Positions 20,991 through 28,314 of a stretch of DNA of 64,000 nt are shown piece after piece (position 1 is the stretch's first letter; each line of letters opens with the position of its first letter). Both the position numbers and the translations under genes were made by a program. The DNA comes from Hericium rajendrae (taxonomy: Eukaryota > Basidiomycota > Agaricomycetes > Russulales > Hericiaceae). The notes below the pieces were generated by a model. That model did not search any database. It saw only the letters and a program-made list of their open reading frames with translations, and was not told the DNA's origin. The stretch spans positions 1,240,001 to 1,304,000 of the forward strand of contig CM065886.1 of NCBI GenBank assembly GCA_033439255.1, given 5' to 3'.

Positions 20991-21664
20991 TTACTATAAT
21001 AGACACACATAGAATCAGTACGGCCTTAGGTGCATAAAAGGGGTTACGTACGAAAGTAAGAGCAGCACCCTTCGTCTTCTTCTCACCACCAAGCTCGAAG
21101 CTGTTCACAAAGGAATCAGAATTTGCAGATCGAAGATTGGGGATATACATACTGCTTGCAGCGCTTGAGCGACATCTGCATCTTGTACTTGCACACAGTG
21201 CACTCCAACCGCAGAACGACTTTCTTGGTCGTCTTCGCCTAAATTCCACCCGAACGACTGTCAGATCGACTACCTATGCTTAACAAGGCAGAACGCACCT
21301 TCTTGTGGAAGACAGGCTTGGTCTGACCACCGTATCCCGACTGCTTACGGTCGTAACGGCGCTTTCCCTGTGCAGCTAACGAAGCCTTGCCCGTCTTGTA
21401 TTGCGTGACCTTGTGGGGGCTTGGATTTACGCAAGCTCAGGCGATACAGTAGCTCAAATGACTAGACAAACGTACGTGTGCTTCCTGCAGTCCTTGTGGG
21501 CGCAGTCTAAACAAATGAGTGCGAGAATCAGCCACAGATCATCAAAGCTTTCACTCGACTACTGACATGTCCGGCGGGTCCTATTCCATAGATTCAATAA
21601 GTCAGCCTTCACGATCGCAGTTTCTGCAGCAAATATCGGATACGCACTTGGGAACGTTGACCAT
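20991..21664 (-). CDS. RPL42: 60S ribosomal protein eL42 (L36a/L44)
   Basis: Seven exons can be read: 21664-21648, 21580-21567, 21506-21476, 21419-21299, 21238-21153, 21100-21052 and a last exon 20993-20991 that is only the stop codon TAA. The product is 106 residues: MVNVPKTRRTYC..., basic, with zinc-binding cysteine pairs C12/C17 and C74/C77 and the ending [10 protein letters not shown]. eL42 sits at the E site of the large ribosomal subunit. Residue 56 is proline ([11 protein letters not shown]), the form associated with cycloheximide sensitivity. If the last intron (20994-21051) were not removed, the frame would run on for about 30 unrelated residues. A 6.5-kb mobile unit lies about 180 bp upstream of the start codon. 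Confidence 0.95.
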
Positions 21665-21843: not shown

Positions 21844-22176
21844 CAGACTCCTTCCCCGCCGCTCGTTCGAGCCAAGGCGCACAATTGCTAGGGGGAAAAA
21901 ATATGAGATATCCGAGTTTCCCCGTACACGTACCGTGTTAGTCCGAAGTTTTGGTGCTATGGCTCGAAGAGCGACTGGCACTTTTCACCCTCATGTAATA
22001 TCGTCCCACGGCCTCCCGCCCATGTCTCGCCCTCTGCACAGCGTCCTCGTCGCGTCGTCGTCGTGCGCGTCGCGGGCCCGCCCCGCCGTGTCCCCTTTTA
22101 GATAGTTCGTGTAATTACTGGAATGTTAAGTTATTTGGCCCTGATAATTAGCCGACTGTTGCTCTCCTCCCCGCCT
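21844..22176 (+). repeat. Left 333-bp inverted repeat
   Basis: Begins CAGACTCCTTCCCCGCC and ends CTCCTCCCCGCCT. It is the exact reverse complement of 27982-28314. The inner 54 bases contain an ATG-initiated open stretch (22123-22176) encoding MLSYLALIISRLLLSSPP that is in frame with the helicase gene. It is GC-rich in the middle, with CGTCGTCGTCG-type runs. Confidence 0.95.
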
Positions 22177-22194
22177 CCGCGGTGCTCCTCATTC

Positions 22195-25152
22195 ATGCCT
22201 CCTGGTCCTGTCCTGCCCTCTCAGGATGAGATCTGTACCCGAACAGTAAGAATATTCCGAAAGCGGCCGTGCGAGCTACAAGTTAAAATATGCTTGGCTC
22301 TGTTGCGACGGGACAAGAATGTCGTCTGTGCTGTGAGCACAGGCTTTGGAAAGACTCTGACATTCATGATGCCCCTCCTCTTCAATGAGCAGGGCATCAT
22401 AATTGTTGTTACTGCCCTCAATATACTTGGTTCTCAGAACGTGAATGCTTTGGACAAAGTCGGTATACGTGCTGTTGCCTTAAGCGGTCGCAATAATACG
22501 GAGGCGAAGTTTCAGGCAAGCTACAACGGCTATTTGTGCGCTGCAGAGACTAAGCGAATAATACAGGAAATAAAGGAATGTTTATACAGGTTCGTTGTCG
22601 TGAGCCCCGAGATCCTTATGGAAAAAGGAGGTCACTTCGACAAGCTATGGAAAGCGAAGGTGTTCACAAACCGATTGATGTCTATGGTCTTCGATGAGGC
22701 TCACTGTATAAGTCGTTGGGGGTCGTTTCGCCCCGAGTACAAGGAAGTCGGGCGCCTTCGGTATCTGCTACCGCAGAACGTCAAATTCTATGCAACTTCG
22801 GCGACGCTTTCGCCACCTGTACTCTCGGACATCTCAGAAGTGCTACATTTGGACAAGACAAATACAGACTTTTACCTGAGGCCTAATGACAGACCGAACG
22901 TCTTCATGTCGGTCTGCCAGATGAAGCACCCAGCAAAATCGTTTCGTGACCTCGACTTCTTGATTCCGAAGGGCGGCGCACCGGTCAAGAAATTCCTTGT
23001 ATTCTTTGACAGCATCAAAGGGGCGGAGGCTTGTTGCAAGTACTTGCGTAGCAGACTCAAGACGGAGCACCAAGACTCCATCATCTGGTACCACTCGATA
23101 ATGACGGATGAATATCGAGAGGCGGAAGCGAGCTTGATCACGACTGGCGACCGATCCGGGGCATGTGCGACCGAGTCCTTCGGGATGGTGCGTGTTCCAC
23201 ATTTAGTATCCAAGCCGGCGTGTCCTCACAAATAACAGGGCATGGACATCCCGGATATAACATTGATAATACAATGGAAGCTCACCTGTAATATGGAGAC
23301 CCTATGGCAGCGATTTGGACGCGGCGCTCGGGATTCAACGCAAGAAGCTGTCGCTATCCTATTTGCAGAGGCACCCCATTTCGATGAAGAAAAAAGAAAA
23401 GCTGAGGACAGAAAGGAAGAACGAGTGGCTAAGAAGGTAAAGCGTGAGGATAACGCACGTTTAAAAGAAGGGGGGAAGACAACTACGAAGAGAGGGAGGG
23501 AAGGGGACAGTATGAAGGATGCCGCGCTCGAAAAGGTAAGGGGCAAACGCCGCGCTGTCGCCGCTCCTTCCTCAACATCACACGCTGCTGCTGTGAACCA
23601 CGACGACATCAGCCAACGACGCGCAGCATCAACTGGCTCTGAATCACCACGAGTTCAGCCGCAGGAAACACCCCAACGGATTTATTCAGTGCCGCACACC
23701 CCTGAGGTCGACAAAGCGCACGATAGCTCAAGAGCGGCGGAGACAATAATGGATCGTCCACAAGCAACTGCCGACGATGATACAGACTTCATGGACACCG
23801 CACAGCCGATCGCGCAGAATGCCATTGCCGGTTCATCTACTGTCATGCAGGGGGTTCCTTCGGCTACAGAAGGTAAGACCATTTATCCGGCATGGGGCGA
23901 GACAGTAGCTGACTTGCTGTGGTATGCAGAATACGGCGACCACCCGATGAACATTTCCTCATCGATGGCGTCAAGCTCGCGCGAGCCATTGGGGCATGAA
24001 CACACCGAGGCATCATCGGATGCCCCGCCGCATAGTAGTGAGTACTGTAATTCCTTCCGAAACAGGCGGAGAAAATTTTACACCACTATCTACCGGGTCA
24101 GGCATAGCTACTAGCCTAGCTACTCCATCGCAGGTTCAGGGCGACAAAGAGCTCCGCGCGAAATACCACGGCAAGGATGCTCAACGAGCATCGTCAAATA
24201 TCAAAGCTCCGCGAGCAAAGCGGCCCGCGATCGAGGTCGATCCTGTCATGGGCGACTTCGTGAACGCGAAGGGACGTGGTCTGGGCTGCCGTCGTAGGGT
24301 GCCACGGGTATACTTTGGAGGAACGTGTCCTGGTAAGTCCTCCCGCATTCGTTCCAGGAAAGCTTATCATTGACCGTGACCATATTTAAATAGCGGAAGA
24401 GTACGAAGCTTGCCAACGTGAGCTACCTGACGGGTGCCCACGGTGCAAGCCCACCGCCTCTCGCTTGTGCTGTGATATCTGTACGCCGACACTCCTTAAA
24501 GACATGGGTCTACAGCTGGATGAAGATGGATCCCGCTCCGCAGGCCCTGGGCCTCTTGCATCATCCCGCCGTTCTAATGTGACCAAACGGGAGCCGACTC
24601 AAAATGATCGCTCATTTTCGAGGCGGGTTTTCGACTGGCGTGAGCTCAAGGCGAAAGTAAAGCTCACCCGTGCTGTCTATGCAAATCTCGGTCCAGCCAT
24701 ATTCCTTTCTGACGAAGTCGTCGACCGCTTGACGCTTTGCGCCGGCGCCGGCAAGCTGGTCACAGTCGCTGATATCTCACGCGAGACTCGCTGGAATGCT
24801 GCCGAAGAACATGGGGAAGACATCCTCGAAATCGTCAAGGAGGTCTACAAGGTCAACGCCTCTGGCGACGTACCGAAAACGTCAGCCGCGCGGTCGTCTG
24901 CACCTTCCGGCATGAGTGTGGTGCGCTCGACGCGGCGCCCCACGACATGCGGCCGCTGTAAACAAGTCGGGCACAATTGTGAGCTGGTTTTCTTTGGGTT
25001 TCGTCTTGATGTCTGATTCAACCTGTTTAATAGCACGGAATCTCGATTGCCCTGGAAGGGTAGAAAACGGCTCGAATATGACACAGGCCATAGCTTTATC
25101 TACGTCTATCCCTGCTGTTCAATCAGATGCTGCCGGCCCATCTCATGCATAA
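22195..25152 (+). CDS. RecQ-like DEAH-box helicase with C-terminal zinc knuckle
   Basis: Six exons fit: 22195-23187, 23239-23872, 23930-24037, 24102-24332, 24394-24978 and 25034-25152, giving about 889 residues. Helicase motifs: Walker A GFGKT (50-54), DEAH followed by CISRWGSFRPEY (from 167, typical of RecQ), ATSATLS, FFDSIKGAEACCKYL, and, across the first intron, SFGMGMDIPDITLIIQW with an arginine-finger region QRFGRGAR. The tail is charged and low-complexity, has a cysteine cluster (CQRELPDGCPRCKPTASRLC...), and ends in CGRCKQVGHN(x6)C, a CCHC-type knuckle of the kind seen in transposases. No HRDC domain is visible. The start could instead be 22123, inside the inverted repeat. Intron 3 is the least certain. 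Confidence 0.8.
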
Positions 25153-25175
25153 TGTCTTCCGCACGAATGGTCCTG

Positions 25176-27954
25176 CTAGATTGCCAGGTCATTACCTTGG
25201 ACAACCTGTTCTGCGATATCATCCTCGGCGGCACCCTCTTCTTCATCTGCTCGCATCGCATCCTCGGTGGCTCCCTCTTCGTCATCTTGTGTTGCATTCA
25301 CAGCGGCACCGTCCTCATCTACTTGCATCGCATTCACAGCTGTATCTGCCGACATGAGCAGCGCGGCTCCCTTTTGGACAGCATTGATGATACTGTATTT
25401 GACTATTTTACCAGCTTGAAATTTATGGGGGTCTGCTTTCTGGATCCACAAGCCTGCCTTCGCCAGCGTTGATGTCAGGTCGGCCGGTGTATGGTGTATG
25501 GTTCGATTGGTAAGACAGAAATTGTCCTCGATATTGACGTGTAATTTTCTGTAGACTTCTATCAAGACAGACTCTTTGATGATGTAGGGAATTGTTCTTG
25601 AGGAGAACTGCCCTCCATATATATGCTAGGATAAATCACGATAAGCATGCAGTCTTCGCATCTTTATGTAAATGAAGCTCACTTTAGTATACAGGTTATT
25701 TCTCTCCACAAGCCAGTCAATACCGCGACACATGCCCGGCTTGCCACGCGGATTACAGAGCCAATTAAGGCGGATTGCACGTCTTATATGTTTGTGAGCA
25801 ACATGCATCGACCAGTTCTTGATTAAAAAGACTCACCGTAAACGTTCAGGGTATGTGAAGTGGAGATCTGTCAAGAATCGCGAGATCTGCGCTGAATATT
25901 TCATCTTTCCGCAGCCTTTAAAGAGAAGTATCCATGTCCCGAGGACGTCTTCAACCCGCCCAATGTCTCCGTTGTTCATTGCGTGAGTTAGTTCTTCATA
26001 TAGCAGGTAATACTGATTTCTGAGAAGGCTGTTCTCGAAGTCGGCGTCACGCTCCTGCGGGGCTCGCCTACGTGAAAATGAGCCTTGAACCACATATGTC
26101 ATCGCAAGCGCGTCCGATATTGAACATATTTCGTCCCATGCTGGCTTCGATTCAGCATATTGAGCGAGGTCCGTGATGCCCGGCTGCCGTCTCTGTACCT
26201 CAACACGCCAACAGTCTAGGCGCCGTGCTAGACCATCCTGTTGAACCAAGTCATGCATCAACCGGAAGCCGGGATTTGAACCAATCTTCCCGGTCTGCTG
26301 TGGGCGAAAAACTCCGGCGAGTTCCATTGTGCTGCTTGCATCCACCCGTGACTGACCCGGCTCGATCAGCAGCCTCCAGATGGCATCGACACAAGCCATT
26401 TTGACATGGAACAGTCCAGGGATAAACACAACATATTGGAACCGCCTCCATGGTGTTTTTTCTAGTGCGCGCGATGCTTGTGCGCTTTGAATGCGCTCCA
26501 TTGTTGACAGGTCTCCATGCACAAGGACGACATGCTTGGTGATGTCCGTTACACCTGGTCTCTCCTCTGGGTCACCGGCATTGGCTTGACGCAGTAGGTG
26601 CTCAACTGCATCAATGTTGCCCTTTGTCGTAGACTGATTGATGCTCATCGCAGATGCCGGAACCTGGCAAGTCTTCGATACGGGAATTTGGTCGATCACC
26701 TCCGGGTCTCCTAGTTCATGTTCGAACTGGCGAAAGTACTCGGGTCCGTACATCACAAGATCGCGGCGGAACTGCCATGCTTGGAAACGCTGACGACGTG
26801 TCAGTTCCGATGGATGATCTTCTTCGGGATGCAAGTTAAGTAGGCTTGTTATATCTCGTTTTGGCTCCGGTGGACTCTTCAAATTGAATATGTTCGTCTT
26901 CCACAGCTCTTCTGAACATTCGAGGTCCTCGGGTGTGACCCCGTGCTCCAGTTTTAGCATGGTCCCCGACGTTAAATGCGCCAGGACACCTCCGCCTCCT
27001 TCAACCGTTGGCGTCGCGACGTCGAGGGCAACATCAAAATTGTCGTATGCAAGCGCCGCGGTAAGCGATGCGCCCAGCTCTTCTAGCTTCTTGCTGGCTT
27101 CCTTCGATAAAGATGTCACAGCCTCATTGATTGCATTGACAGATATCGAGAGTCCCGCATGTGCGAGGGTCTCAATAAGTCGCTCGGGGGTTTTGCTTGA
27201 GTGCGCGAACAGTCCTATTACGGATGCGAACGCATTGCATTGCTGGTTCGTACTCTTCACCATGATGCTCATAAGCGTAACCTTTCTCTGTCATAGTGTT
27301 ATTTTGTCAGCGCGCAATGAGCAGCACATATCAAGATGAAGTACATACGATTGTCTGAAGACTCTCGCGCCGAGAGCGGAGTGACTTCGTAGATGCTGTC
27401 GGTGATGCATCCTCTATCTCATCTGTGACTCCGTATTCGGCATGGTAGACGTCGTCTCCTGCTGGTTCGTGTTCTCTGCCATTCTGGTGATCTCTACCTG
27501 TCTTCTTATCTGTCTTCAAAGCATAGCTTTCGCGGTCCTTTCGCAACACTCCGTCGGCATTGAGACACGTATCTAGGAAGCTCCAGCAGCATGGTGCGAC
27601 TTCCTCCATTGTTTTCGCCAGTTTTCGCATGCTGAAAGACTCGAGTTGCTCAGCGGTCGCATGCTTTGCATTGAAATGAAGTCCGCTTTCTTCGCGGCTA
27701 AGCATGTTGAGCTCCGCGCAGAAGATTTGTGTCGTCGTTGCCATCATCCACGATCGCATGCTCTGTGATGCTCTCATGTTTGACTTGTACATCAATGGCA
27801 ACAGCTCGGGCAAGCTGTTGACTATTAATTGTGTGGCTGGGTGATCCATGTATGCATTGTCATTGAGTAGAGTGACCAGGACCTGCAGCAATACATCCGT
27901 GTGTGTTGTAAAGTGCCCCAGGAGATCCTCGACAGAACACGAATCTAACAGCAT
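25176..27954 (-). CDS. DUF6589-domain protein, candidate recombinase of the element
   Basis: Four exons (27954-27349, 27287-25837, 25782-25683, 25625-25176) give 868 residues; a start at 28035 inside the inverted repeat would add 27. The blocks HGDLSTMERIQ, PWRRFQYVVFIPGLFHVKMAC, IGSNPGFRLMHDLV, FKGCGKMKYSAQISRFLTDL, AIRLNWLCNPRGKPG and ERNNLYTKHIYGG are the core I associate with DUF6589, a large family in Agaricomycetes with no known function. Conserved acids in YDNFD (D284, D287) and HGD (D461) are spaced as in an RNase H-type nuclease; this is inference. The C-terminus is an acidic run of DEEG-type repeats. It is convergent with the helicase gene, 23 bp apart. Confidence 0.8.
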
Positions 27955-27981
27955 CTTGCAATCTGTACCTAGAGCAAGGGC

Positions 27982-28314
27982 AGGCGGGGAGGAGAGCAAC
28001 AGTCGGCTAATTATCAGGGCCAAATAACTTAACATTCCAGTAATTACACGAACTATCTAAAAGGGGACACGGCGGGGCGGGCCCGCGACGCGCACGACGA
28101 CGACGCGACGAGGACGCTGTGCAGAGGGCGAGACATGGGCGGGAGGCCGTGGGACGATATTACATGAGGGTGAAAAGTGCCAGTCGCTCTTCGAGCCATA
28201 GCACCAAAACTTCGGACTAACACGGTACGTGTACGGGGAAACTCGGATATCTCATATTTTTTCCCCCTAGCAATTGTGCGCCTTGGCTCGAACGAGCGGC
28301 GGGGAAGGAGTCTG
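27982..28314 (-). repeat. Right 333-bp inverted repeat
   Basis: Exact reverse complement of 21844-22176. In this arm the open stretch MLSYLALIISRLLLSSPP (28035-27982) is in frame with the DUF6589 gene. Outside the repeat the sequence (GGGCGAGGACCTATG) has no counterpart beyond 21844. Confidence 0.95.

Follow-up and report, generated by a model that had tools for sequence, protein, structure and literature searches.

We examined a 64,000-nucleotide stretch of the Hericium rajendrae genome (assembly GCA_033439255.1, contig CM065886.1, positions 1,240,001 to 1,304,000), hereafter called the window. The segment of it from 21844 to 28314 is very probably an apparently complete two-gene cut-and-paste DNA transposon, in which a DUF6589 protein, predicted to be a DDE transposase, is paired with a RecQ-like helicase, and which most likely belongs to AcademH. 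That lineage reportedly goes back to Kojima 2020 (Mob DNA 11:15). The main gain of the analysis is the assignment of DUF6589 as the predicted transposase of the element.

The whole element measures 6471 bp. Its two inverted-repeat arms, of 333 nt each, are 100% complementary in the window sequence and are separated by a spacer of 5805 nt (Table 1), which bears out the perfect identity that the original prediction had read by eye. The two genes are convergent and occupy most of the interior. One point needed refinement, as the ATGs of both long open reading frames (ORFs), at 22123 and 28035, fall inside the repeats. The left repeat contains the upstream region of the long helicase ORF together with its first 18 codons, and the right repeat the corresponding parts of the long DUF6589 ORF. 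With these starts, both ORFs would therefore begin with an identical repeat-borne peptide. The frames of both genes are open in the window copy, which may itself be mobile.

The identity of both genes, as originally proposed, was supported by profile matches. The ORF at 25833-27272(-) matched PF20231 (DUF6589) at 5.5e-77, and predicted models of two DUF6589 homologues were observed to have an RNase H fold of the DDE-transposase type. Fold matches of these models include Hermes, the P element and ISCth4, the first two being better than the third, with a sequence identity to the Hermes and P element transposases of about 10% in the fold comparison. The acidic residues of the candidate triad (Table 1) are conserved among DUF6589 homologues, and the glutamate, counted back from the aligned ends, is the counterpart of what we take to be E572 of Hermes and E962 of RAG1. 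On the strength of these models, DUF6589 is predicted to be a DDE (RNase H-fold) transposase in which the triad would be catalytic. A search of PDB sequences with the DUF6589 profile gave no match up to an E value of 1, and when 54 DUF6589 proteins were scanned against Pfam, none of the 25 families listed, out of 30, was another transposase family. The literature searched yielded no biological paper on DUF6589, PF20231 or IPR046496. In an alignment search aimed at animal relatives of the protein, the 120 of 311 matches listed carried a fungal name or no name; the named ones, both here and in a list of 83 matches, are presumably Agaricomycetes fungi.

The helicase ORF at 22123-23235(+) matched Pfam DEAD at 4.7e-20 and NCBIfam recQ_fam at 1.7e-29. 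As the recQ_fam score of 102.9 bits is below the curated cut-off of 219.8, the careful name for this divergent protein is 'RecQ-like'. Its exons (22123-23187 and 23239-24114) encode motifs I and II, the RecQ aromatic loop, and motifs V and VI, the sequences being TGFGKT (Walker A), DEAH, HCISRWG (RecQ-type loop), FGMG and QRFGRGAR, and the solved structures that score best against it are those of RECQ5, RECQ1 and WRN. Translation may also start later, at 22195, and additional Cys-rich exons reaching to about 25016 are likely. The splice sites of both genes were assigned by hand from sequence alone.

We searched the genome (46.8 Mb in 19 contigs, denoted by C-numbers below) for both genes. DUF6589 had at least 68 matches and the helicase at least 35, which collapsed to 34 and 31 clusters, respectively. 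A helicase was found at most 8 kb from 23 of the 34 DUF6589 clusters, in convergent orientation at 19 and divergent at 4; 2000 runs of random placement, with a limit of 10 kb, gave a mean of 0.44 pairs and a maximum of 4. In addition, protein distances of DUF6589 correlated with those of the helicase (r 0.944 for 14 pairs and 0.901 for the 12 that were non-redundant), and none of 5000 permutations reached either value; the test covered pairs with a DUF6589 piece longer than 250 residues and a helicase within the blocks examined. The excess of pairs and the correlated distances thus indicate that DUF6589 and the helicase are inherited as a unit. The element had originally been put forward as the possible founding copy of an undescribed superfamily, a claim which is not supported: this genome has at least 23 such neighbouring pairs, the window copy being one of them, and its anatomy agrees with that of AcademH as far as partial accounts describe it.

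The repeat is also not unique. The outer 165 bp, whole or in part, occur at six other loci, in ten stretches, and other elements of the genome have the outer 156-172 bp of the window arms in common. Target duplications of 9 bp were observed at 6 of the 10 sites at which both ends could be defined, their sequence varying from site to site, and the left ends read CAGACT, CAGACC, TAGTCT or TAGACT (YAG...). Together with the fold of the homologues, these copies and duplications lend support to the autonomous-transposon architecture that was first proposed. Neither of the two small elements with an exact duplication (Table 1) matches DUF6589 or the helicase. The duplication at C9:180981 is ambiguous because it lies inside a 9-bp tandem repeat. 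The stretch C9:958188-978819, which was read at its ends, is interpreted as a single element interrupted by other DNA, since an identical 9-mer stands at either end.

The four sites with both ends and no 9-bp duplication are the window copy, a copy at C9:215877-222478 and two sites of miniature inverted-repeat transposable elements (MITEs). The C9:215877-222478 copy and the C8 element share 98.99% identity, the first two bases of the former being changed. None of the MITEs of the C8 family has a 9-bp duplication, and those at C12:1539346 and C7:2619007 have common flanks and represent one duplicated site. At the window copy no target-site duplication was found (left flank CTTCCTCGT, right flank GGGCGAGGA), the flanks diverging from the first base beyond the repeats; in a scan for 9-bp duplications that allowed one mismatch, the sole pair stood at different positions, C9:1261503-1266297. 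This copy may have been rearranged after insertion, for example by recombination between copies or by loss of a flank. The count of ten excludes an element on C3 that has lost its left end, copies on C10 and C18 seen at one end, and a copy at C8:1871317 seen at its left end only. With flanks of mostly 1.5 kb a side, both ends were not found for 12 of the 17 gene pairs covered in full. The one-mismatch scan revealed no 8-bp duplications. A looser scan gave 7-, 8- and 10-bp matches that were set aside, being located within repeat arms or displaced by one base from the true ends.

Table 1. Features of the window element (window positions) and of related elements elsewhere in the genome (contig positions)
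Feature	Location	Strand	Details
Left terminal inverted repeat	21844..22176	+	starts CAGACTCC; 333/333 pairing with right arm
Right terminal inverted repeat	27982..28314	-	ends GGAGTCTG; 333/333 pairing with left arm
RecQ-like superfamily 2 (SF2) DNA helicase gene	22123..24114	+	exon 22123-23187, intron, exon from 23239
DUF6589 gene (predicted DDE transposase)	25176..28035	-	four hand-spliced exons, 895 aa
DUF6589 exons	28035-27349, 27287-25837, 25782-25683, 25625-25176	-	hand splicing
Candidate catalytic D311 codon	27042..27044	-	YDNFD, strand 1 of RNase H fold; assigned by position
Candidate catalytic D488 codon	26511..26513	-	HGDL, directly after core strand
Candidate catalytic E739 codon	25704..25706	-	DWLVE, last core helix
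Small element	C2:4099778-4101187		~1.4 kb stem-loop, arms 571 bp; exact 9-bp duplication; shares window repeat end
Small element	C14:1656714-1658116		~1.4 kb stem-loop, arms 518 bp; exact 9-bp duplication; shares window repeat end
Two-gene element	C8:743104-749706		own arms 151 bp, 98.7%; 9-bp duplication
Two-gene element	C11:591846-597511		own arms 271 bp, 90.8%; 9-bp duplication
Element	C9:180981-187305		few matching end bases; 9-bp duplication, ambiguous; found by paralogue comparison
Element	C9:958188-978819		9-mer duplication; found by paralogue comparison
MITE	C12:1539346-1539453		104-108 bp class; ends as in C8 element
MITE	C7:2619007-2619114		104-108 bp class; ends as in C8 element
MITE	C7:685263-685366		104-108 bp class; ends as in C8 element

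Two divergent DUF6589/RecQ pairs at C16:253918-260925 and C16:263258-270263 are mutually inverted and 99.7% identical over 6464 bp. The DUF6589 loci at C14:400707-404402 and C14:1380022-1383717 are 99.6% identical over the 3.7 kb compared, and the genome search with the helicase gave no match on contig C14, which bears both. The transposon in the window lies a few hundred bases upstream of the gene for ribosomal protein eL42 (21052-21412, - strand), whose three exons, joined by hand, match Pfam Ribosomal_L44 at 4.3e-32.

Compared with published descriptions, the lineage of the element is most likely AcademH. Terminal inverted repeats are a general feature of DNA transposons, and in the DUF6589/RecQ elements they range from 333 bp in the window through 271 bp (C11) and 151 bp (C8) to a few bp (C9:180981). 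An excerpt of PMC10045372 gives target duplications of 9 or 10 bp for AcademH and of 3 or 4 bp for AcademX, and relates the difference to the presence of a helicase as against a nuclease. In excerpts of PMC10799480, the domains given for the helicases of AcademH, KolobokH or Helitron include DEAD and Helicase_C, and low copy numbers of AcademH are reported for Basidiomycota, Ascomycota and Mucoromycota. Our elements resemble this description in being helicase-encoding DNA transposons of a basidiomycete, with a RecQ-like protein that has SF2 motifs beside most DUF6589 clusters, and in their 9-bp duplications, present in the family and absent from the window copy; nothing contradictory was found in the accounts of AcademH given by the citing papers, to which the comparison was confined. 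In another Agaricomycete genome, that of Marasmius oreades, insertions of putative non-autonomous Academ elements are widespread according to an excerpt of PMC8290104, and autonomous ones were then sought with an Academ hidden Markov model; these elements enter our comparison by description. AcademX was rejected on the 3-4 bp length of its duplications as against 9 bp here. AcademX carries an XPG-like nuclease gene, and a Pfam scan of the six interior ORFs of the element revealed no nuclease family.

Since helicase, DDE transposase and duplications of 9-10 bp in basidiomycetes are together the combination reported for AcademH, at least in the excerpts cited, we consider it improbable that the DUF6589/RecQ elements form a superfamily separate from Academ that gained its helicase and 9-bp duplications independently. 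Such a separate standing would agree with the Pfam scan, which listed no other transposase family in the DUF6589 proteins, and with the silence of the searched literature on DUF6589 biology. A similar pairing of a RecQ helicase with a DDE transposase exists in fungal KolobokH, which an excerpt of PMC9587614 describes as the RecQ-bearing Kolobok lineage, found only in fungi; as the same excerpt mentions a red-algal Kolobok with RecQ on the complementary strand, genes on opposite strands do not by themselves exclude this group. However, Kolobok duplications are given there as TTAA, and the 9-bp duplications of varied sequence found here, instead of 4-bp TTAA, led us to reject KolobokH; with the YAG... 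ends and the separate genes on opposite strands, they make membership in any Kolobok lineage extremely unlikely.

The long repeats and 9-bp duplications would suit a Mutator-like element (MULE). Both are typical of MULEs, and ISCth4, one of the fold matches, is presumably a Mutator-family insertion sequence transposase. Hermes and the P element are nevertheless better fold matches, the 25 Pfam families listed, of 30, for the 54 DUF6589 proteins include no MULE family, and we know of no MULE with a RecQ helicase, so that this origin is very unlikely. hAT and P elements, whose duplications are 8 bp, do not agree with the size of 9 bp observed here; sequence identity to Hermes and the P element is low, as noted above, and to our knowledge neither group has a helicase partner. 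Helitrons have neither inverted repeats nor target duplications and encode a Rep/helicase fusion; the terminal repeats and 9-bp duplications found here do not agree with this. Finally, the perfect identity of the arms and the missing duplication at the window copy could point to an assembly artefact or to two resident genes that by chance came to lie within a palindromic duplication. This is highly improbable because other loci share the repeat end and sister two-gene elements share the anatomy, with repeats and duplications of their own; moreover, the two flanks of the window copy diverge immediately beyond the repeats.

In the cut-and-paste mechanism that we propose for this probable AcademH element, the DUF6589 transposase would bind the terminal repeats and cut at the YAG... 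ends, next to the flank. The ends would then be joined to target DNA with a stagger of 9 bp, giving rise to the 9-bp duplication, and the convergent RecQ-like helicase would most likely unwind ends or gaps in excision, strand transfer or repair.

A further property of the family lies in its arms. When their outer 172 bp are compared, the two arms differ at no position in the window and C2 elements and at one in the C14 element; between these three elements the same stretch has 9 to 18 differences per ~170 positions. Over their full length the arms differ at 0 of 333 positions in the window, 1 of 571 in C2, 1 of 518 in C14 and 2 of 151 in the C8 element, and the stem-loop arms of C2 and C14 are ~10% different from each other. 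Had the two arms of an element diverged independently, they should be as different from each other as from the arms of other elements, and the arms of the window, C2, C14 and C8 elements therefore seem to have been mutually copied. This homogenisation is not universal, as the arms of C11 are 90.8% alike and the ends of C9:180981 match at no more than a few bases. Copying may proceed by fold-back of strands opened by the helicase, or by ordinary gene conversion. A bolder idea, conceivable although we lean against it, is that RecQ produces fold-back single strands on which arm is copied onto arm in each cycle, and that the same helicase lineage also gave rise to the chromosome-end RecQs of mushrooms. 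If true, fold-back copying would explain why arms are identical within elements yet 5-11% different between sisters, and how stem-loop derivatives with arms of 518-571 bp originate.

Three near-identical RecQ genes were observed at C11:56394-59939, C1:5259053-5262589 and C1:640704-644249. The first is 58 kb from the contig start and the second 47 kb from the contig end, which places both within 60 kb of a contig end that may or may not be a telomere; the third is at 642 kb. All three are 72% identical over ~1440 nt to the helicase adjoining DUF6589 at C2:502 kb. In an unrooted tree they join this helicase (support 0.964), and the group is nested in a clade (1.000) that also includes the C16:58413 and C13:639291 helicases, apart from two host-type RecQ genes; the tree is a small one, from partial sequences of one genome, and a third host-type RecQ was dropped as too short. 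The two host genes stand between clades of transposon helicases, where branches are weakly supported, and the tree therefore gives no deep direction of descent. For Agaricus bisporus, an excerpt of PMC7473861 describes RecQ helicases in subtelomeric position, their role being unclear.

The element is most likely a member of a lineage named in 2020, and the finding is thus useful for annotation and does not add a new kind of element. DUF6589 proteins across the Agaricomycetes, which have so far been without a function, may be annotated as transposase genes, and the many 'RecQ' gene models that adjoin them should be treated by annotators as transposon genes. These elements also provide a system for asking of what use a RecQ helicase is to a cut-and-paste transposon, and whether the helicases at fungal chromosome ends may be former transposon genes.
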